Assembly (NCBI RefSeq): GCF_001565895.1
Contig: NZ_LSNE01000020.1
Coordinates: forward strand, 181,367 to 234,770
Direction of reading: 5' to 3'
Length of the DNA: 53,404 nucleotides
From: Paraglaciecola hydrolytica
GTDB taxonomy: Bacteria; Pseudomonadota; Gammaproteobacteria; Enterobacterales; Alteromonadaceae
The notes below the pieces were generated by a model that had not been told where the DNA came from, did no database searches, and worked only from the letters and a program-made list of their open reading frames with translations. Shown here one piece after another: positions 43,203-53,404 of the stretch (positions within the stretch are counted from its first letter, which is position 1; the number at the start of each line of letters is the position of its first letter). Both the position numbers and the translations under genes were made by a program.

Positions 43203-46200
43203 TTGCAAAAATCACTCTTACTTCTTGTTTTATTGTTTTTAAATTTTAGCGTTCAAGCAACACAGCCACCTACTGAAAAACAAATTGAGAAATACAAAAA
43301 AGACGGAACATTAAGACAAAAAGCCGAGAGAGCCAAAGCCTATGGCAATCTTAAAATTGCCCCTAATTTGCTTAACAATTTAAAGTACAGAGCCGAATTG
43401 AAGACATCTTCATCTACAACGTCATTCAATAAAAAAGCAGATCTCGTTCTAGGTAATTTTGCCAGTTTAGGCACACCAAAAATGTTAGTACTACTGGTTG
43501 AATTTCCTGAATATTTGCATAAAGCAACCAATAGCCGTGAACAGATCGCCAATAAAATATTTGGACAAGGTGATGCAGAATTATTTCCCTATGACAGCTT
43601 AACGGAATTTTATAAACGCTCTTCCTATAACAAAGTTGATATTCAAGGCAATGTTCTTGATTGGTATCAAGCCCCCCATCCTCGACCAGTAGATACTGGC
43701 GATAACGCATGGCAAGTTAAACAACAAATAGTAAAAGATGCGATCAACCATCATGAAGCACTAGGCCATGATTTTACTCAGTATGATAACGATGGTGACG
43801 GCGCAATAGATTACATTGCCGTTATTTGGACGGGTCCCCCGGGAGAATGGGCGTCCTTATGGTGGGGAACCTATTCTACCTATGGTGATGATTCATTTGT
43901 AGTAGATGGAAAAACCTTGAGGGGGATTTCGTGGCAGCAAGTATCTTATGATGTGGATGAAGGTCCTTTCACAGCGCAAACGCTCATTCATGAAACAGGC
44001 CATGCAATGGGACTTGCTGACTACTATGATTATGCTCCCGACATTGGCCCTAAAGGTGGTGTTGGTGGCCTAGACCAAATGGGAGGAAATTATGATCATA
44101 ATGCTTTTAGTAAATATCTATTAGGTTGGTTAACCCCTCAGTTTGTCGGCAGTGGTTCTGAAGCGATTAATTTGCTCTCATCAACATCCACTGCTGATGC
44201 CCTATTAATCATGCCCTCAGCAGATGAATCGACTATTTATGATGAATTTTTCATTGTTGAATCTAGAAAGCAAGAAGCTAACGACACTTACTTACCCAAT
44301 ACTGGAATATTAATTTGGCATGTTGACGCAACACTTAATGAATGGAGTTGGTTTAAAAACGATAATAGCTATTCTGATGATAAATTTTTGCGATTAGTAC
44401 AAGCTGACGGTTTAAATGAAATTGAAAACCTAGGCAGCGTGGCTAATGCTGAAGACTTTTATACCACAGGTGGAGAATTTTCTCCTGACACCATGCCACA
44501 AAGTCGAAATAATGCCCAACTACAAACCGGCGTCAAGATTGCTGATATGACAGTAGACGAAAACGTAGCTTTTATTGGTGAAATATTACCTAACGTACCT
44601 GATTTTAGTTTAATTAATTTAGACGAATATCAGGCCCTTAGAAACGGTGAAACATCATCCGTTGCGGCGTTAGCTGATACTGACATTGCTAATGTAGAAA
44701 TATATGTAGATAACACTCTGATAACCACTTTACATGATGCTCCGTTTAATATTGTTTGGACTGACGACAATATGACGTTGGGCTCACATAAAGTCGCCAT
44801 TAAAGTCAGCAATAGCGATGGAAACTCTAGTACTGCACATCGTGACGTCATGTATCTCAATAATGAAAAAAGCGCGTTAATTGTTTCATTAGGAAAACGT
44901 GACATTGATAACGATACTCAGCTCGAATCGATGTTATCTGAAGCAGGTATTAACATCGTAACGAGTACTTTTGTTTTCCCGCTTGATAATACTGATTTTA
45001 GTTTTGTGTTTGTGAATTATGGCTCGGCAAATGGACCATGGGTGTCAATAGAAGAAGGCTCTGATAGTAAAACAGCCTATGGCATTGCGCGAGCGGCATC
45101 CTCTAATGAAGTCGCTGCTTTTAGTCATTATATCAATCAGGGCGGGTCTATCATCATTCAAGGTGAAGGCGTTTTTAGTTATTCTGCGCAGGAATTTTCT
45201 GATCTATTTGGGGTTGACGTTGAAAAAGAAGGTTTAAATGTAACTAACGTTTTTGCTGACAACGTTTACCAACAAAGAGCTATCGATGTGTCACTTAGTG
45301 AAAGTGAAGACATCGTGCAAGTAGATCTATTTAAGGCTCAAGACTCGATTGAAAACAGTCATACTATTTTGACAGCGTCAGGTGATTATTATGATTGGGA
45401 TGCAGGTCAATGGCTTCAAACCCAAGGAACTTGTAGCTTAAACCAGCAAGTTTCAGGCGCTAAAGTTATTATTTCTAGCTGTTTAACACGCCGTTTAGAT
45501 AAATACTCGAAAGGTGTGCTGTTTAATAATTACTTAGCTTTTTTAGGCGTAAATGAACGTATTGCAATAAATCGCAAACCGGTAATATCTGCTGGTTCAG
45601 ATCAAACTATTGCAGAAGGAAGCTCAGTAACCTTAGCCGGGTCTGCTAAAGATGATGATGATGACAACCTCACAATTACCTGGAGTCAATCAAGTGGCCC
45701 TGCTGTGACGCTATCAAATATAAATTCATTAACGCCAACATTTACTGCACCTGAAGTATCAAGTAATCAAAACGTTGTATTTGAATTATCCGTTTCAGAT
45801 GGTATTGATACTGTGATTAACCAAATTGTAATAACAATTAAGAATGTTAATCGCAAACCTATAATTTCTGCAGGTTCAAATCAAACTATTACAGAAGGAA
45901 GTTCAGTAACTTTAGCTGGGTCTGCTAAAGATGATGATAATGACAACCTCACAATTACCTGGAGTCAATCAAGTGGCCCGGCTGTGACGCTATCAAGTAT
46001 AAATTCATTAACGCCAACTTTTCCTGCGCCTGAAGTTTCAACTAGTCAAACCGTTGTGTTTGAATTATCCGTTTCAGATGGCACTGAAATGGTAACTGAC
46101 ACCGTGTCTATTACCATAAGGGATAGTGCAGTAACGCCACCTAGCAGCGGCAATCCAAGTAGCTCGTCGGGAGGAGGCTCAACAACTTTTTACAATATAC

Positions 46201-46319
46201 TTATGTTACTTTTGCTGTTTTTTGTGCGACAAAACCAGGCGTGCAAAGTGCCGCTCTGCAAATGTACAGATGTAAAAAAACTCGGCGAAAAATTCTTACT
46301 TAATCCCCACAAAAAATAA
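43203..46319 (+). CDS. secreted M6-family metalloprotease with C-terminal Ig-like repeats
   Basis: A 1038-aa exported zinc protease. The TTG start has AGGGA 8 nt upstream and leads directly into a signal peptide (MQKSLLLLVLLFLNFSVQA); no ATG fits. The M6 (immune-inhibitor-A-like) domain covers residues ~80-470, with HETGHAMGLADYYD supplying the HExxHxxGxxD zinc motif. A Big-like domain follows (ADTDIANVEIYVDN). Two 93-residue near-identical beta-sandwich repeats begin RKPVISAGSDQTIAEGSS. The end is a Ser/Gly-rich linker, SSGGGS, and a hydrophobic helix resembling a GlyGly-CTERM sorting signal, with an unusual ~30-residue tail after it. Confidence 0.9.
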   Translation: MQKSLLLLVLLFLNFSVQATQPPTEKQIEKYKKDGTLRQKAERAKAYGNLKIAPNLLNNLKYRAELKTSSSTTSFNKKADLVLGNFASLGTPKMLVLLVEFPEYLHKATNSREQIANKIFGQGDAELFPYDSLTEFYKRSSYNKVDIQGNVLDWYQAPHPRPVDTGDNAWQVKQQIVKDAINHHEALGHDFTQYDNDGDGAIDYIAVIWTGPPGEWASLWWGTYSTYGDDSFVVDGKTLRGISWQQVSYDVDEGPFTAQTLIHETGHAMGLADYYDYAPDIGPKGGVGGLDQMGGNYDHNAFSKYLLGWLTPQFVGSGSEAINLLSSTSTADALLIMPSADESTIYDEFFIVESRKQEANDTYLPNTGILIWHVDATLNEWSWFKNDNSYSDDKFLRLVQADGLNEIENLGSVANAEDFYTTGGEFSPDTMPQSRNNAQLQTGVKIADMTVDENVAFIGEILPNVPDFSLINLDEYQALRNGETSSVAALADTDIANVEIYVDNTLITTLHDAPFNIVWTDDNMTLGSHKVAIKVSNSDGNSSTAHRDVMYLNNEKSALIVSLGKRDIDNDTQLESMLSEAGINIVTSTFVFPLDNTDFSFVFVNYGSANGPWVSIEEGSDSKTAYGIARAASSNEVAAFSHYINQGGSIIIQGEGVFSYSAQEFSDLFGVDVEKEGLNVTNVFADNVYQQRAIDVSLSESEDIVQVDLFKAQDSIENSHTILTASGDYYDWDAGQWLQTQGTCSLNQQVSGAKVIISSCLTRRLDKYSKGVLFNNYLAFLGVNERIAINRKPVISAGSDQTIAEGSSVTLAGSAKDDDDDNLTITWSQSSGPAVTLSNINSLTPTFTAPEVSSNQNVVFELSVSDGIDTVINQIVITIKNVNRKPIISAGSNQTITEGSSVTLAGSAKDDDNDNLTITWSQSSGPAVTLSSINSLTPTFPAPEVSTSQTVVFELSVSDGTEMVTDTVSITIRDSAVTPPSSGNPSSSSGGGSTTFYNILMLLLLFFVRQNQACKVPLCKCTDVKKLGEKFLLNPHKK
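45570..46127 (+). repeat. two 279-bp tandem repeats inside the M6 protease gene
   Basis: Units 45570-45848 and 45849-46127 each encode a 93-residue PKD/REJ-like domain with the same core (GSSVTLAGSAKDDD, NLTITWSQSSGPAVTL). DNA identity is very high over the first ~180 bp of each unit and falls off at the end. This suggests recent duplication or gene conversion. Confidence 0.85.
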
Positions 46320-47155: not shown

Positions 47156-47710
47156 ATGCAACTCACTCCTATGCTCGAATCTTTTATTATGCACTTTGGT
47201 GAAATGGGCAGTCGTTGGGGATTTAATCGTACCGTTGGGCAAATTGTGGCGTTACTTGTGATCAGTGAAGAGCCGATCACAGCTAATGACATTGCCGATG
47301 CGCTGCGTATATCTCGTGGCAATGTAAGTATGGGTTTAAAAGAGCTACAGGCTTGGCGTTTAGTGCAATTGCAACACAAACCGGGCGAGCGTAAAGAGTA
47401 TTTTCAAGCCTGTGGCAGTATTTGGGAAATGGCCAATCGGGTATTTGAAGAACGTCGCAAACGCGAAATGGACCCCACTTTGACTCTGCTACGCGACATA
47501 CTATTAGATAAACCTGCCAATGGAGCTGAGCAACACGCCCAAGTAAAACTACAAGAAATCCATGATTTACTTGAAGGGATCAGCAAGTGGTCGACTGAGT
47601 TACAACGTCTTGGCCCCGACAAACTCAGTACCTTAATGAAACTAGGCTCGGGGGTTGGCAAAGTGCTTGATTTGAAAGACAAACTACTCGCCAAACCATC
47701 TAACAGTTAA
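47156..47710 (+). CDS. GbsR/MarR-type transcriptional regulator
   Basis: A 184-aa winged-helix regulator of the GbsR family. It starts ESFIMHFGEMGSRWGFNRTVGQIVALLVISEEPITANDIADALRISRGNVSMGLKELQAWRLV, followed by the wing QHKPGERKEYFQA and a long C-terminal helical region. GbsR proteins of this type are commonly encoded next to the short-Q-loop bd oxidase genes. It lies 33 bp before cydA in the same direction, so it most likely regulates the oxidase and itself. Confidence 0.9.
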   Translation: MQLTPMLESFIMHFGEMGSRWGFNRTVGQIVALLVISEEPITANDIADALRISRGNVSMGLKELQAWRLVQLQHKPGERKEYFQACGSIWEMANRVFEERRKREMDPTLTLLRDILLDKPANGAEQHAQVKLQEIHDLLEGISKWSTELQRLGPDKLSTLMKLGSGVGKVLDLKDKLLAKPSNS

Positions 47711-47743
47711 CACTTAATTTTAACGATTTTTACTGAGGATATT

Positions 47744-49129
47744 ATGGAGGATGTACTGTTACTCTCCCGTTTACAGTTTGCTGCCAACATTAGTTTTCAC
47801 ATACTGTTTCCCAGCATCACTATTGCGTTGGGATGGTTTTTGTTCTACTTCAAACTGCGTTTTAACTTGTCAGGTCATCCAGTATGGATGCGAATCTATC
47901 GTTTTTGGGTCAAAATATTCGCGCTGACCTTTGCCCTTGGCGTGGTTACTGGCATTACCATGTCGTTTCAGTTTGGCACTAACTGGCCTGGTTTTATGGC
48001 CACAGTGGGCAATATTGCAGGGCCCTTATTAGGTTACGAAGTTCTCACCGCATTTTTCCTCGAAGCAACCTTTTTAGGCATTATGCTATTTGGCATCAAT
48101 CGAGTTCCCCCTTGGGTGCATACACTAGCAACCCTGATTGTGGCGATTGGGACTACCCTATCCGCATTTTGGATCATCGCTCTCAATTCGTGGATGCATA
48201 CACCTGCGGGTTTTGAAATGCGCGACGGTGTTGCTTATGCAGTAAATTGGTGGGCCATTGTTTTTAACCCGTCCATGCCCTATCGCCTCACCCACGTATT
48301 GTTGGCATCTGGGCTGACTGCGGCATTTTTGATTACGGGGATCTCGGCCTATCGCATCAAACGTGGTGACGATAAAAAAGCACCAAAACTAGCGTTAAAA
48401 TCAGCTGTTTTTGTCGCAGCTATCTTAATCCCTATTCAGATCCTAGTGGGCGACCAGCACGGTTTAAATACCTTAGAGCATCAACCACAAAAAGTAGCGG
48501 CCATGGAAGCCGCTTGGGAAACCAAACAAGGTTTACCCCTAGTCCTTTTTGCTGTGCCTGATGAAAAACAACGAACTAATCATCTCGAAATTGCTATCCC
48601 CAATGGTGCGAGTTTAATCTTGACTCATGAGTTACTGGGCGAGGTCAAAGGCCTCAATGAGTTTGAAGGCAAACATCCTCCCGTTGCTCCGGTGTTTTAT
48701 GCCTTTCGTATCATGTTAGTGACAGGGGTATTGATGCTGCTGATTTCTTGGCTAGTCAGTTTTAAACTGCTGCGCAATCAAAACCTACCGCCCTTATTGC
48801 TTAAAGCCTTGGTAATAATGACCTTTTCTGGCTGGCTAGCGACAATTGCGGGTTGGTATGTGACCGAAATTGGCCGCCAGCCTTATTTAGTGAGTGGCAT
48901 ACTAAAAACCGCTGATGCTGTCACCACTATTCCATCAGGCAACGTATTATTCAGTTTAATTGGTTATCTTTTAGTTTATGCCATCTTGCTCACAGCCTAT
49001 ATAAAAACCTTGTTCAGAATGGCGCGTAACTCGGTGTTGATTGAAGAAATAAAACTCGAAGAACGTGAAACTCAGAAAGATTTCAAACTTAACCGTGAAA
49101 CCCAAACTACAGAGCAGAAAAACTCATGA
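47744..49129 (+). CDS. cydA: cytochrome bd-type (CIO-like) ubiquinol oxidase subunit I
   Basis: Quinol-oxidising, heme-carrying subunit of a proton-motive but non-pumping terminal oxidase. The 461-aa protein starts LLSRLQFAANISFHILFPSITIALGW, with the heme b595-ligand His near residue 20. It also has FALGVVTGITMSFQFGTNWPGF, NSWMHTPAGFEM, DQHGLNTLEHQP and the signature WYVTEIGRQPYLVSG. The quinone loop after helix 6 is short compared with E. coli CydA (522 aa), marking the cyanide-insensitive (CioA) branch. A GAGGA Shine-Dalgarno is present and the stop overlaps cydB (ATGA). Confidence 0.94.
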   Translation: MEDVLLLSRLQFAANISFHILFPSITIALGWFLFYFKLRFNLSGHPVWMRIYRFWVKIFALTFALGVVTGITMSFQFGTNWPGFMATVGNIAGPLLGYEVLTAFFLEATFLGIMLFGINRVPPWVHTLATLIVAIGTTLSAFWIIALNSWMHTPAGFEMRDGVAYAVNWWAIVFNPSMPYRLTHVLLASGLTAAFLITGISAYRIKRGDDKKAPKLALKSAVFVAAILIPIQILVGDQHGLNTLEHQPQKVAAMEAAWETKQGLPLVLFAVPDEKQRTNHLEIAIPNGASLILTHELLGEVKGLNEFEGKHPPVAPVFYAFRIMLVTGVLMLLISWLVSFKLLRNQNLPPLLLKALVIMTFSGWLATIAGWYVTEIGRQPYLVSGILKTADAVTTIPSGNVLFSLIGYLLVYAILLTAYIKTLFRMARNSVLIEEIKLEERETQKDFKLNRETQTTEQKNS

Positions 49130-50124
49130 TAGCTGATCACAATTTACCCGTCATTTTTGCCGGTTTAATGGCTTTAGCCATCATAGTGTATGCCATTCTT
49201 GATGGTTACGATTTAGGCGTTGGTGTGTTACTACCACTTGATAATACTGAACATAGTGACCAAATGATTGCTTCGATTGGGCCCTTTTGGGATGCCAATG
49301 AAACCTGGTTGGTGCTGGCTGTCGGTTTGTTATTAATTGCCTTCCCAGAAGCTTACAATCTGGTCTTAAAAGAACTGTATCTACCCGCTTTTGTATTACT
49401 AATTGGTTTGATATTGCGGGGGGTAGCCTTTGACTTTCGCGCTAAAGTCCACCTTGATCACAAACGTACGTGGGACAAAGTATTTAAAGCCGGCTCAATT
49501 ATCTCATCAGCCGCACAGGGCTATATGTTGGGCATGTATGTGATGGGTTTTGAATCAACTATCAGTGCCCATGCTTTTGCCATTTTAAGCGCCTTTGGTG
49601 TGACCTGTGCCTACGCCTTAATTGGCAGTGCATGGTTAATCATGAAAACCGAGGGCGAATTACAGTTGAATGCCATTCGCTGGGCTAAGCTATTTGGCAA
49701 GATTGCTTGTGCAGGTATTATCGCAGTATGTGTGGTTAACCCCTTGATCAATCCCTTTGTTTTGGAACGCTGGACCACAGCACCCTACGCCTATTTTATG
49801 GCCATCATCCCCTTTATTAGTTTTGTACTGTTGTTTATCGGTAATGCCGTATTAAACCGCTTGCCCTTAAAAGATGATAGTGGCTGCTGGCTGCCATTTG
49901 TGATCACCTTGGTGTTGTTTATGTGCTGTTTTAGCGGCTTAGCTTTTAGCTTTTTCCCTTGGGTAGTGCCACAGCAACTTACCATTTGGCAAGCAGCCAG
50001 TGCAGCAGGTTCGTTGCGTTTTATTTTAATAGGCGCACTAATCGTAATTCCCTGTATCTTGGCTTATACCGCATTTTCGTATCGGGTATTTTGGGGCAAG
50101 GTCGAGCATTTACGCTACTACTAA
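49126..50124 (+). CDS. cydB: cytochrome bd-type (CIO-like) ubiquinol oxidase subunit II
   Basis: Partner subunit with about eight membrane helices. The 332-aa protein starts with the CydB signature VIFAGLMALAIIVYAILDGYDLGVGVLLP and GPFWDANETWLVLAVGLLLIAFP, then LKELYLPAFVLLIGLILRGVAFDFR. Its ATG overlaps the cydA stop by 4 bp. No CydX-type micro-protein follows, which fits the CIO subtype. A hairpin at 50157-50180 ends the operon. Confidence 0.94.
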   Translation: MIADHNLPVIFAGLMALAIIVYAILDGYDLGVGVLLPLDNTEHSDQMIASIGPFWDANETWLVLAVGLLLIAFPEAYNLVLKELYLPAFVLLIGLILRGVAFDFRAKVHLDHKRTWDKVFKAGSIISSAAQGYMLGMYVMGFESTISAHAFAILSAFGVTCAYALIGSAWLIMKTEGELQLNAIRWAKLFGKIACAGIIAVCVVNPLINPFVLERWTTAPYAYFMAIIPFISFVLLFIGNAVLNRLPLKDDSGCWLPFVITLVLFMCCFSGLAFSFFPWVVPQQLTIWQAASAAGSLRFILIGALIVIPCILAYTAFSYRVFWGKVEHLRYY

Positions 50125-50245: not shown

Positions 50246-50360
50246 CTTAAGTAGTTGAACAACTATTAAGAAAACGTCCTAAACCATCCCTATAATAAAA
50301 CCATTTATTGCTGTTTTGCAGATGACATACTAGGCAAGAAGAGTATTAACTTAAGTTAAT
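50246..50360. promoter_or_regulatory. two palindromes upstream of the caspase-CHAT operon
   Basis: An inverted repeat at 50246-50270 (CTTAA-g-TAGTT ... AACTA-TTAAG) and a perfect 16-bp palindrome ATTAACTTAAGTTAAT at 50345-50360 lie 163-187 and 73-88 bp before the caspase start. Both contain CTTAA/TTAAG cores. They are good operator candidates. The regulator is unknown. No gene is seen in 50125-50432. Confidence 0.45.
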
Positions 50361-50432
50361 GCTAGTGCGTTAAATTCAGTTTTTAGAAGCTATTATGAAA
50401 CCATAGTGGCGATTATTTACCGGGATGTAAAA

Positions 50433-52502
50433 ATGCCTAAAAAATATGCATTGCTTATTGGTATTAACAAATACCTTTTCATGCCAGATAAGTATCAATT
50501 ACATGGATGTGTAAACGATGCCAAGCTCATCCAGAATATCCTCATCAATAAATTCAATTTTGCAGCACATAATATCATCAGTCTTTTTGATGAGGCAGCA
50601 ACACGAGATAACATCCTCGCTGAAATGGAAGGTCTAGCAAATATTATAGCGAAAGACGATATCTTGGTTTTTCATTACAGTGGACACGGGCATCAATGCA
50701 AAATTAAAACAGAGTTTACTGATGAAGGCAGTGGTAAAGATAACTGCATTTTGCCATGTGATGATGCAGAGCCCTCAGCAGAAGGCGATATTTGGCGGGA
50801 AATTCGAGACTATCAGATCAACGAATGGCTGCAGCGCATCGCGCAAAAAACGCCTTACTCCACTCTCATTTTTGACGCCTGTCATTCAGGCACCATGACA
50901 CGCAGTACAGACAAAGCAACAACCCGCAGTTTGCCAACTGAAGCGCGTCTTTTAGCAAAAAGTGCCCCCATAGCCAGAAGTACGCCAAGCTTGCGATCCA
51001 ATACCAACCTGAATACCAACGCAACTTTGTTACAAAAGCCAAGCGCAGGCGGCTGGTTAAACTTAAGTGATAACTATGTGGTGATGTCGGGTTGCAGAGA
51101 TACACAAAAATCCAAAGAAAAATACTTTAGCCAGGATGGGCAAAACACTAAACACGGGGTTTTAACATACTATCTCAGTCGTGCACTGCTGCGAGCCAAA
51201 CCAGGAACTACCTATCGCGATGTATTCGAATTGGCCTGTGCGAATGTGGTCGCGGATGTTTCTGAACAACATCCACAAATCGAAGGGGCACTTGATCGAG
51301 AACTTTTTGGCGTCAAAGACATCGAGCCCTTAGCATTTATTCCAATAACCAATATCGATGGTCAGCAAATTACTCTGGGCGGTGGAGCGGCCCATGGTTT
51401 GCGTAAAGGTTCAGTTTGGAATATTTATCCACCTGGCAGCAAACAGGCTAGCAGCAATCAAGCGTTAGGCTCACTTCAAGTCACTGCTGTGGGAGCATTA
51501 AGTTCAACAGCTTTGCTGCAAGAAAGTACTGCCCCATTGCTCATAGGCGCACGATGTGTCGAAGTGCAAGCAGCCTACGCCCCTGATTTATTGCAAATTG
51601 ATATTAGCCAACTGGCCGACACCTATAAGCAAAATATTACAAGGGGCATCAGTCAGTCAAAATTAATAGCTGTGGCTGCCACGCCCGATGACGCACACAT
51701 ACTTGCCTGCGTTATTACCAGTGGCACGGTATTACCGCCAACATTAAGCGCACAACTGCATCAACAACAGCCACTTATTAGCCAGGACACCTGGGCATTT
51801 TTTGAAGCCGATAACGTATTGGCCATGCCCTTGCATGCCGTGGCTGAGCCAGGTGTAGTCAGAGTGTTACTAGATAACCTCGAGAAAATTGCTAAGTTTC
51901 GAAATGTGCTACTGTTAGATAACCCCGCCACAACACTGAATGTTGAATTTAATTTGTTCAAACAAACTACCGACGGCAACCTGGTGTTGGCCAATGGCGG
52001 AAGTACTGAATTTTTGGAAAACCAAGCCATGGTGCTTGAACTTAAAAATAACGAGGCAGCTAAAACGGTATTTTTTAGTATTTTGTGGATCAGCGCTGAT
52101 CGAGAAATTAGTCATTTTTATCCCCATCGCAAAACAAGTGAAGAACTTAGCCCAGGCAAAACCATTCGGATTGGTTTGGGCAACAATAAGCTCACCGCCT
52201 CGCTGAGCAAAGATTATTATGGCGATATCGGCAGCGAGTCATGCAAAGTCATTTTCTCTAGCACTGAGACTGATTTTAGTTGGCTCAACCAACAGGGTTT
52301 ACGCTCCAGTAGCGGCTCACAATCCAACTTAAGTGCTTTTGACTCAGCCTTTCTTGGCAAGGACGCCGGTTTGCGCACTACCGATCAACTAAACCCAAAT
52401 AGCAGTGCAGAGTTAGCAGAGCGCAGTGCTGTTGACGTACACCACGACGATTGGGATGCCGTCACTCGGAGTTTTATCCTAAGAAGAACCAGTAACTCAT
52501 GA
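50433..52502 (+). CDS. caspase-family (C14) cysteine protease
   Basis: A 689-aa bacterial caspase homologue. The start at 50433 (MPKKYALLIGINKY) has GGGA 7 nt upstream; the longer in-frame form adds nine residues before the first beta strand. The p20-like domain (1 to ~290) has the dyad His85 in VFHYSGHGHQ and Cys150 in FDACHSGTM, plus the insert GKDNCILPCDD. The ~400-residue C-terminal part has two beta-rich regions. One resembles DUF4384-type sandwiches (NQAMVLELKNNEAAKTVFFSILWISADREISHFYPH). There is no signal peptide or membrane segment. It overlaps the downstream CHAT gene (ATGA). Confidence 0.9.
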   Translation: MPKKYALLIGINKYLFMPDKYQLHGCVNDAKLIQNILINKFNFAAHNIISLFDEAATRDNILAEMEGLANIIAKDDILVFHYSGHGHQCKIKTEFTDEGSGKDNCILPCDDAEPSAEGDIWREIRDYQINEWLQRIAQKTPYSTLIFDACHSGTMTRSTDKATTRSLPTEARLLAKSAPIARSTPSLRSNTNLNTNATLLQKPSAGGWLNLSDNYVVMSGCRDTQKSKEKYFSQDGQNTKHGVLTYYLSRALLRAKPGTTYRDVFELACANVVADVSEQHPQIEGALDRELFGVKDIEPLAFIPITNIDGQQITLGGGAAHGLRKGSVWNIYPPGSKQASSNQALGSLQVTAVGALSSTALLQESTAPLLIGARCVEVQAAYAPDLLQIDISQLADTYKQNITRGISQSKLIAVAATPDDAHILACVITSGTVLPPTLSAQLHQQQPLISQDTWAFFEADNVLAMPLHAVAEPGVVRVLLDNLEKIAKFRNVLLLDNPATTLNVEFNLFKQTTDGNLVLANGGSTEFLENQAMVLELKNNEAAKTVFFSILWISADREISHFYPHRKTSEELSPGKTIRIGLGNNKLTASLSKDYYGDIGSESCKVIFSSTETDFSWLNQQGLRSSSGSQSNLSAFDSAFLGKDAGLRTTDQLNPNSSAELAERSAVDVHHDDWDAVTRSFILRRTSNS

Positions 52503-53404
52503 AGACTGCCCCACTTCCCATTGTTTTTTTGGCTTTTGCCAACGACTTTGATAATCATCTGAATGCCTTAAAGGATGAAAGTCGAAATATATTCCGCAGT
52601 TTACAAGGACTCGAACAAGACCATGTCTTAGCTATTCACCGTGAGGAAAGCGCTCAGGTTGATGAACTCTACAACGACTTACTAGTTTACGATGGCCAGA
52701 TTGTGATTTTTCACTATGCAGGTCATGCCGATGGCTCTATGTTGCAATTGGAAGGTGCGGCTACAGGCGCAGACGGTTCAGCGGGCGCTGGGGGTATCGC
52801 AGGACTTTTAGGCCAACAACGCAGTTTGAAACTGGTTTTCCTTAACGGCTGTGCGACCAAAGATCAGGTGAAATTGCTGCATAAAGCTGGTGTGCCAGCG
52901 GTCATTGCCACTGCCGTTAAAATCAATGATAGCAAAGCCACCTGCTTATCTACGGCATTTTATGCAGCACTGGCCAGTGGGCAAAGTATCTATGAAGCCT
53001 TTGACTCTGCGCAAAATTATATTGAGGCCAAGTTTAGCACCTCTGGCGAGCACCCACTTAAAATAACCCGTCAGCCTAACTTTAGTTTTGCAGAAGAAGA
53101 AACAGAACCACAAAATTATGAGTTTGAGTGGACACTCTATACACGCCCTGATGCCGAAGCCGATCTCAAACAATGGCGTCTACCCCATGCGCGTGAAAGC
53201 TGGCAAACCCAGTTGGCAAATTCTCAGGGCAGTATAAAAAATCTTGATGGCGAAGCACTGCCTATTGATTATCGCTCACGCACACGAACAGTTCATGTAC
53301 TGGCTTGCACTCACTGCGGCATTCGCAGCTCACAAACACCACAAAATAGTGTTTACTGCCCTATATGCACAAATAAAAATACCGACGTTAGCAGCGCACA
53401 AACG
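52499..53404 (+). CDS. CHAT-domain protein with zinc ribbon (partial, runs off the window)
   Basis: An open frame of 302 codons with no stop before the edge. Its ATG overlaps the caspase stop. The N-terminal domain (1 to ~175) has the caspase-fold CHAT pattern: LPIVFLAFANDFDNHLNAL, VIFHYAGHADGSMLQLEG with candidate His76, and LVFLNGCATKDQVKLLHKAGVPAVIATA with candidate Cys118. A linker region follows. Cys270, 273, 287 and 290 (C-x2-C-x13-C-x2-C) form a zinc ribbon in TVHVLACTHCGIRSS...VYCPICTNK. What lies C-terminal, possibly an effector or NTPase module, is outside the window. Confidence 0.85.
   Translation, partial: MKTAPLPIVFLAFANDFDNHLNALKDESRNIFRSLQGLEQDHVLAIHREESAQVDELYNDLLVYDGQIVIFHYAGHADGSMLQLEGAATGADGSAGAGGIAGLLGQQRSLKLVFLNGCATKDQVKLLHKAGVPAVIATAVKINDSKATCLSTAFYAALASGQSIYEAFDSAQNYIEAKFSTSGEHPLKITRQPNFSFAEEETEPQNYEFEWTLYTRPDAEADLKQWRLPHARESWQTQLANSQGSIKNLDGEALPIDYRSRTRTVHVLACTHCGIRSSQTPQNSVYCPICTNKNTDVSSAQT

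Follow-up and report, generated by a model that had tools for sequence, protein, structure and literature searches.

In the type III-B SAVED-CHAT system a CHAT protease is coupled to a caspase, and Steens et al. are said to have described in 2024 a caspase as the target of this protease. Here we describe a locus of Paraglaciecola hydrolytica in which a caspase gene and a CHAT gene are likewise coupled. The window, by which we mean the whole stretch of 53,404 nucleotides that was analysed (contig NZ_LSNE01000020.1, positions 181,367 to 234,770), ends inside this gene pair. An earlier sequence-only reading of the window had described the pair and suggested extending the contig to the right; the extended stretch, L002 (window position = L002 position + 48633), carries the rest of the CHAT gene, a trypsin-like protease gene, a small open reading frame (ORF) of heptad repeats and a gene for a tetratricopeptide repeat (TPR) protein. 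We read these genes, with moderate confidence, as an accessory, envelope-spanning protease cascade in which the CHAT protease and the caspase are mutual activators. The features are as follows.

50433 to 52502, plus strand: caspase-fold protease (Peptidase_C14) with a weak DUF4384-like C-terminal region, 689 aa
50685 to 50687, plus strand: catalytic His85 codon of the caspase, His in 120/120 listed relatives
50880 to 50882, plus strand: catalytic Cys150 codon of the caspase, Cys in 120/120 listed relatives
50901 to 50948, plus strand: caspase p20-p10 linker with Arg157, Arg165 and Arg172, candidate activation cuts
52499 to 52502, plus strand: ATGA stop/start overlap of the caspase and CHAT genes
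52499 to 53404, plus strand: CHAT protease domain and zinc ribbon, first 302 codons of a gene that runs on past the window
52724 to 52726, plus strand: CHAT His76 codon, kept in 61/61 alignable rows
52850 to 52852, plus strand: CHAT Cys118 codon, kept in 60/60 alignable rows
53306 to 53368, plus strand: four-Cys zinc ribbon (Cys270/273/287/290), 62/62 relatives
L002:4905-6464, plus strand: rest of the CHAT protein, beyond the window
L002:6449-8353, plus strand: trypsin-like protease, 634 aa, overlapping the CHAT ORF by 16 bases
L002:8409-8813, minus strand: heptad mini-protein, a small ORF of PDxRxGx units
L002:8869-10932, plus strand: TPR protein, 687 aa

The likeness to the type III-B pair (Steens et al. 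2024, cited in PMC11229360) extends to structure, since the nearest solved structure to the CHAT part is the SAVED-CHAT filament 8tl0, whether judged by sequence (E 1.5e-6), profile (E 4.8e-10) or fold (E 3.5e-8). However, the CHAT domain is here fused to a zinc ribbon, a beta domain and predicted membrane helices, and the cassette adds a trypsin-like protease, a heptad protein and a TPR protein. No SAVED domain was matched in the window part of the CHAT protein, in the part beyond the run of Ns that interrupts its gene, or in the full-length protein of a related locus (L020), and no Cas-like ORF was noticed in L002 by eye, no dedicated search for CRISPR type III genes having been made. A caspase with a membrane partner and a predicted conflict role also recalls the EACC1-caspase pairs, but their partner is the single-helix EACC1 rather than a CHAT protein (PMC7159879); membership was rejected, as the caspase scored 31.4 bits against NF047832, with a cut-off of 140. 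The vWA-MoxR, VMAP and NucA-trypsin systems share with the cassette trypsin- or caspase-like signalling or effector peptidases and a patchy distribution, and their effector position is filled by a trypsin or a caspase, the two being described as mutually exclusive (PMC7159879, PMC8195603). In contrast, a trypsin-like protease and a caspase share one cassette here, and the scanned cassette proteins gave no MoxR or vWA Pfam match. Canu caspase-nuclease loci combine a caspase with cassette partners and in some cases with TPR parts (PMC12799240); no Pfam match to an MBL-type nuclease was found in the scanned cassette proteins. Nor was there any Pfam or PADLOC match to a gasdermin in the cassette proteins, and TPR and CHAT lie on separate genes rather than being fused as in the TPR-CHAT protein of Craspase, for which gRAMP was not searched. 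Finally, the trypsin-like protein resembles DegS/HtrA in its fold and predicted secretion, but differs in lacking a PDZ match, in its C-terminal region and in its CHAT and caspase partners. The parts of the cassette are of known kinds, the heptad protein being the newest. The cassette of caspase, CHAT-zinc-ribbon and trypsin, the CHAT-ribbon-membrane protein and the heptad protein were not found described in the open-licence literature, a search that took in neither subscription papers nor supplements and did not include the heptad motif by name.

The caspase gene can start at GTG 50406, but ATG 50433 was chosen because the N-termini of relatives point there; it stops at 52502. The sequence-only reading had placed the start of the element at 50246, which is intergenic sequence after cydB, 187 bases ahead of the caspase start, although the genes themselves are as it described them. 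The Peptidase_C14 match is strong (Pfam, E 2.1e-28), metacaspase chains are matched by sequence, and the fold with its His-Cys dyad places the protein among the C14 peptidases and orthocaspases. Both dyad residues are at the places first proposed and are kept in every listed relative (505 were found and 120 listed; residues are numbered from the ATG). Asp148, just before the catalytic Cys, is invariant (120/120), and linker residues Arg157, Arg165 and Arg172 are retained in 120/120, 120/120 and 119/120 listed relatives, while two other linker positions checked were variable or mostly gaps. The invariant Asp and the linker Arg residues may point, if only indirectly, to Arg/Lys-directed cutting by the caspase. 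The DUF4384-like domains of the earlier description held only in part: in the window protein the match is under the curated cut-off (Pfam, E 0.028), but precomputed annotations assign the domain to many of the relatives listed. Hydropathy indicates no hydrophobic segment in the protein. In one relative, an Aliiglaciecola (L012:14-2014), the caspase gene is split by a stop, and the CHAT, trypsin-like and TPR genes are open there.

The ATGA overlap that joins the caspase gene to the CHAT gene was found as described, as were the CHAT dyad and the zinc ribbon. The window part matches the CHAT domain at E 1.4e-9 (Pfam), the fold of a modelled relative matches 8tl0, and the dyad is kept wherever the 62 rows align (one has a gap at His76 and two at Cys118). 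As predicted, the gene continues past the window. The last base of the window is C20:234770, in a contig of 269,553 bases, and a run of 133 Ns (L002:4772-4904) follows directly; the reading frames differ across the run, but its true length is not fixed and the difference therefore has no bearing on whether the gene is intact. In relatives the gene is a single ORF of ∼820 aa comprising the CHAT domain, the zinc ribbon, a beta domain, predicted membrane helices and a C-terminal domain. A search with one such full-length relative (L020:12000-14462, 821 aa) found 285 proteins, of which 120 were listed; among those listed, 62 proteins of 560-887 aa matched at E ≤2e-132, after which the matches fall off sharply and cover only about one quarter of the query, corresponding to the CHAT part. 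Profiles of the CHAT, ribbon-plus-beta, membrane and C-terminal parts all match single ORFs in five related loci (L009-L012, L020), and the same four profiles match the two halves that flank the N run in the window genome. On these alignments the CHAT-ribbon-membrane product is one protein and not two. An AlphaFold2 model of a relative (P0126) has a mean predicted local distance difference test (pLDDT) score of 82.7, and contains helices at 531-552, 562-581 and 587-612 of moderate confidence (blocks of 62-82), the first two of which pass the hydropathy threshold. The third may also span the membrane, which would place the C-terminal domain in the periplasm. The membrane part is matched on its own by a separate 206-residue ORF in Edaphobacter (L031:16890-17507), which lies ∼5 kb from a caspase gene.

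The third protease matches Trypsin_2 (Pfam, E 2.3e-6), and its triad of His78, Asp107 and Ser200 is present in 42/42 relatives, a set that includes P0241, 99% identical to the window genome's own protein. Cys90, 120, 424, 432, 498 and 507 are near-invariant (38-41 of 41-42), and a hydrophobic, signal-like N-terminus predicts secretion. The AlphaFold2 model (mean pLDDT 82.8) matches the protease domains of Deg/HtrA (Foldseek, E 3.1e-12), DegS and Rv3671c, so that the chymotrypsin fold and His-Asp-Ser triad assign the protein to S1C (HtrA/Deg); HtrA/Deg proper also carries a PDZ domain, to which no Pfam match was seen at E 0.1. The PADLOC RT-Protease_XI model is matched by 38 of the 42 trypsin-like relatives. 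The TPR protein has three hydrophobic segments near its N-terminus by hydropathy. Beside the caspase of another locus, the start of the TPR protein (L019:7250-9505) reads by eye like a TIR domain.

A caspase alignment of 24 rows, together with two peptide patterns, was run against 84,980 species genomes and gave 426 relatives; the best 80 were kept and represent 79 loci. Twenty-three loci were tabulated, namely the window's own and L009-L030 (30-53% identity, at least 613 residues spanned), while later loci such as L034 and L040, which span most of the query at 24-31%, are outside these counts. A CHAT gene is present in 13 of the 23 stretches. The long CHAT-ribbon-membrane type comes right after the caspase in seven (the window's own, L009, L010, L011, L012, L020 and L027, the last cut by a contig end), another CHAT type lies directly beside the caspase in four (L018, L019, L028, L029), and in two (L013, L015) the CHAT gene is elsewhere in the stretch. 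A trypsin-like gene is next in five of the six long-type loci that are uncut by a contig end, L010 being the exception. The order caspase-CHAT, mostly with the trypsin-like gene, is seen in Arenicella, Aliiglaciecola, Halieaceae (contig cut) and other gammaproteobacterial contigs. Matching of rows by exact longest-contig size pairs 13 of the 120 caspase rows with the 62 CHAT rows, as against 0 or 1 in ten offset controls, and likewise pairs 14 of the 42 trypsin rows with the CHAT list (one contig counted twice). Across 15 linked pairs, distances among the caspases correlate with those among the CHAT proteins (Mantel r 0.71, 0/5000 permutations), a result that common host descent could also give. 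The genes recur as neighbours, and all three proteases have complete catalytic sites. The coupling proposed in the sequence-only reading is real, and the findings that it had named as telling against it did not appear: homologous pairs co-occur, their dyads are kept and the neighbourhoods showed no conserved link to metabolism. The pair, though, is two of five or more parts and not the whole system.

A sister layout is found at L013-L016, L018, L019, L022-L024 and L028, where the caspase is accompanied by some of three other partners, namely another type of CHAT protein, a small membrane protein and a caspase-nSTAND1 protein; of the two caspase-nSTAND1 proteins scanned, that of L013 has WD40 matches and that of L023 does not. 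Beyond Arg3, one Arg is kept in the otherwise variable N-terminal segment of the small membrane protein (8/8) and may be a cut site. Of the neighbourhood modules suggested earlier, the nucleotide-binding one thus occurs in the sister layout, as nSTAND1, but none was matched in the five cassette proteins scanned.

The heptad ORF is encoded by a DNA array beside the window genome's TPR gene (42-bp unit, 6.7 copies), which on the minus strand reads PDERVGM/PDERPGM through 12 full units and ends as PDER-stop. A strict search, for at least three tandem P..R.G units at a spacing of 6 or 7, was positive in 10 of 80 loci (the window's own and L009-L087), all of which belong to the 23 tabulated ones. 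In 6.7 Mb of base-shuffled sequence, where shuffling keeps composition only, it yielded no array. Looser arrays were taken by eye in L012 (PGTRPGR), L022 (a 14-mer) and L030 (a 12-mer), so that arrays of either form are present in 13 of the 23. From locus to locus the units vary in their DNA and at a few residues, and P-D-x-R-x-G is constant in nine arrays. The variable sites of these nine fall 7, 5 and 52 at codon positions 1, 2 and 3 (n=64), and the array is therefore selected as a protein. It is very improbable, then, that it is a mere minisatellite or an untranslated DNA or RNA regulatory element; differing array leaders, varying unit numbers and the lack of an evident strong ribosome-binding site before the window genome's array (by eye) would suit such an element, but this and a chance origin were rejected on the codon-position bias and the shuffled control, and in addition one peptide motif is kept under different DNA spellings and some leaders are alike (L125/L126, L013/L015).

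Six arrays stop exactly at Arg (the window's own, L011, L012, L017, L019, L020), and that of L010 also ends at Arg, after a different tail, while those of L013, L015, L018, L022, L028 and L030 have no Arg at the end. The array accompanies the TPR gene: it is present in 11 of 12 loci with a TPR match (E <1e-20) versus 2 of 11 without (by-eye forms counted; Fisher p 6e-4, post hoc), a count in which L018 and L030 end close by, the TPR protein of L025 starts kinase-like (by eye) and the TPR gene of L028 is ∼7 kb away from the array. The array gene is divergent from the TPR gene in the window genome, L010-L013, L015, L017, L020 and L022; it lies directly ahead of the caspase in L018 and L028, and between caspase and TPR gene in L019. 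A relative without a caspase match (G020) has two TPR genes with arrays decayed, by eye, to two and one units. Another Paraglaciecola genome (G016, taken as MB-3u-78) has a decaying sister-layout locus (L126, G016:C3:108000-126000) with a three-unit array, a caspase-nSTAND1 fragment, a CHAT protein and a TPR gene interrupted by an ORF that looks transposase-like by eye; its caspase and small membrane gene are on another contig than this array.

The distribution of the cassette is sporadic. Among 118 relatives CHAT was found in one and the caspase in three, one of them partial; the caspase was found in 5 of 395 sampled family genomes and in 5 of 369 sampled class genomes, where the full model was matched only in the window's own. 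The cassette lies between cydB and a choice-of-anchor I gene, which are 9,995 bases apart in the window genome (G000:C20:231488-241482). In eight relatives with both genes on one contig the same gap measures 426-4,894 bases and the cassette is missing. The gap thus varies from 0.4 to 10 kb across nine genomes, with differing contents and, by eye, other ORFs in most, which fits gain or loss of the cassette as a block. The cassette is probably accessory and horizontally acquired.

Taken together, these results suggest the following cascade. On the periplasmic side, the HtrA-like protease and a portion of the TPR protein would detect damage to the envelope or an invasion, or pass on a signal of it, and the CHAT protein would carry the signal across the membrane. 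CHAT and caspase would then activate each other by cutting after Arg in the caspase p20-p10 linker, with a threshold set by the heptad protein, which, having one Arg per unit, may bind several caspase molecules as scaffold, decoy or substrate. The released caspase would cut cell proteins, so that the cell is stopped or killed. The likeliest use is conflict with a phage or other invader, followed by an envelope-stress or death programme. If the proposal is true, the cassette would be a bacterial counterpart of multi-step caspase signalling without CRISPR or gasdermin, in which three proteases of different classes and an Arg-per-unit repeat protein are combined in a compact, testable system of ∼9 kb for how bacterial caspases are held off and switched on; an ORF of the heptad type is easily overlooked as low-complexity sequence.

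Several observations weigh against the proposed cascade. The 133-N run of the assembly falls within the CHAT gene of the window genome, and 10 of the 23 stretches examined have no CHAT gene (L014, L016, L017, L021-L026, L030), the caspase being near a contig end in three of these (L016, L026, L030). The topology of the CHAT and TPR proteins rests on prediction, and Pfam matched no nucleotide-binding sensor in five cassette proteins. Pro follows Arg in 27 of the 58 heptads of nine arrays, all in L013, L018 and L028; trypsin-like enzymes, like most of the caspase fold, cut an Arg-Pro bond poorly. The heptad protein may therefore escape cutting, which argues for binding rather than cutting, although in the window genome's array, where V and P alternate, every second site would still be cuttable. 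The caspase, CHAT and trypsin-like proteins gave no heptad-like motif, and the idea that such motifs in cassette proteins are cognate cut sites was rejected, with only two loose matches (the small membrane protein of L018 and the caspase-nSTAND1 protein of L022). There is also no clear defence island in the flanks of eight related loci (59 proteins), which does not prove absence. The CHAT matches on plasmids (4 records) and the caspase match on phages (1 record) are all partial; on plasmids the caspase has 79 records, the ten listed having 23-29% identity and two of those covering at least 80% of the query. Transport by mobile elements was consequently dropped as support.

A more specific role for the heptad protein, which we advance tentatively and consider rather unlikely, is that of an encoded, tunable, multivalent caspase ligand whose units are docked in, or cut by, an Arg-specific caspase and whose unit count sets the threshold. 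The array has 12 units in the window genome and a single one where a copy has decayed, and this number would then determine how many protease molecules are brought together or held back, so that a tandem repeat would serve as an apoptosome-like threshold device. As such a ligand, the protein would gate the envelope-spanning three-protease cascade of the CHAT/trypsin layout, and in the sister layout the small membrane protein, with its kept N-terminal Arg, would be the cut effector.

The alternative that survives best, which we regard as possible though short of probable, is that the same cascade is strictly an anti-phage defence, a functional CRISPR-free relative of type III-B SAVED-CHAT/caspase, in which infection triggers CHAT, CHAT cuts the caspase and the caspase causes abortive infection. 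The closeness of CHAT to 8tl0 fits this, as do the caspase-nSTAND1 proteins of the sister layout and the PADLOC matches to a caspase model (E 2e-25), RT-Protease_XI (E 1.3e-8) and, weakly, SAVED_CHAT (E 0.0014, confined to positions 391-453 of the 498-position profile). Against it, no SAVED domain was matched, no trigger was identified and the flanks, again, lack a clear defence island. The flank scan covered 59 proteins of at least 150 aa from eight loci (L009-L013, L015, L017, L020), with 28 of 87 omitted, including all from L019 and L028. Twenty PADLOC models each matched one or two of the 59 (best E 5.2e-13), among them a MotB/OmpA-like ZorB, RmrA, capH, HTH_VI, a 2OG CRISPR-associated model and LmuA (2.4e-6). 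We judged these matches generic, without checking them one by one, and with ordinary families around them the defence island was dropped as support. A defence role is possible and stands, as the sequence-only reading had put it, as an inference.

It is somewhat less likely that the same cascade serves an envelope-stress or death circuit unrelated to phages. The HtrA/DegS-like protease would detect misfolded envelope proteins, CHAT would pass the signal inward and the caspase would remodel or kill the cell, by analogy with DegS, which starts the sigma-E pathway. The closeness of the trypsin-like model to Deg/HtrA, DegS and Rv3671c, its signal-like helix and near-invariant Cys residues, and the flank Pfam families (25 of 75 viewed, all ordinary chromosomal) are consistent with this. 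However, the caspase is sporadic (5/395 family genomes) and eight relatives lack the cassette at this site, a pattern that suits a routine stress system less well than an accessory conflict module. In addition, caspase and trypsin modules are characteristic components of predicted conflict systems (PMC7159879, PMC8195603), and CHAT has been named among defence effector domains (PMC10907252). Ordinary regulated proteolysis or housekeeping, without death or conflict function, would suit the ordinary chromosomal neighbours among the families viewed, but is improbable given the rare, patchy distribution and modular partner swapping.

Upstream of the cassette, the window encodes a MarR-family regulator followed by the cytochrome bd oxidase genes cydA and cydB (47156-50124). 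Before these lies a gene for a large, secreted-looking protein with PKD/Ig domains and an HExxH motif (43203-46319), by eye an M6-type metalloprotease.

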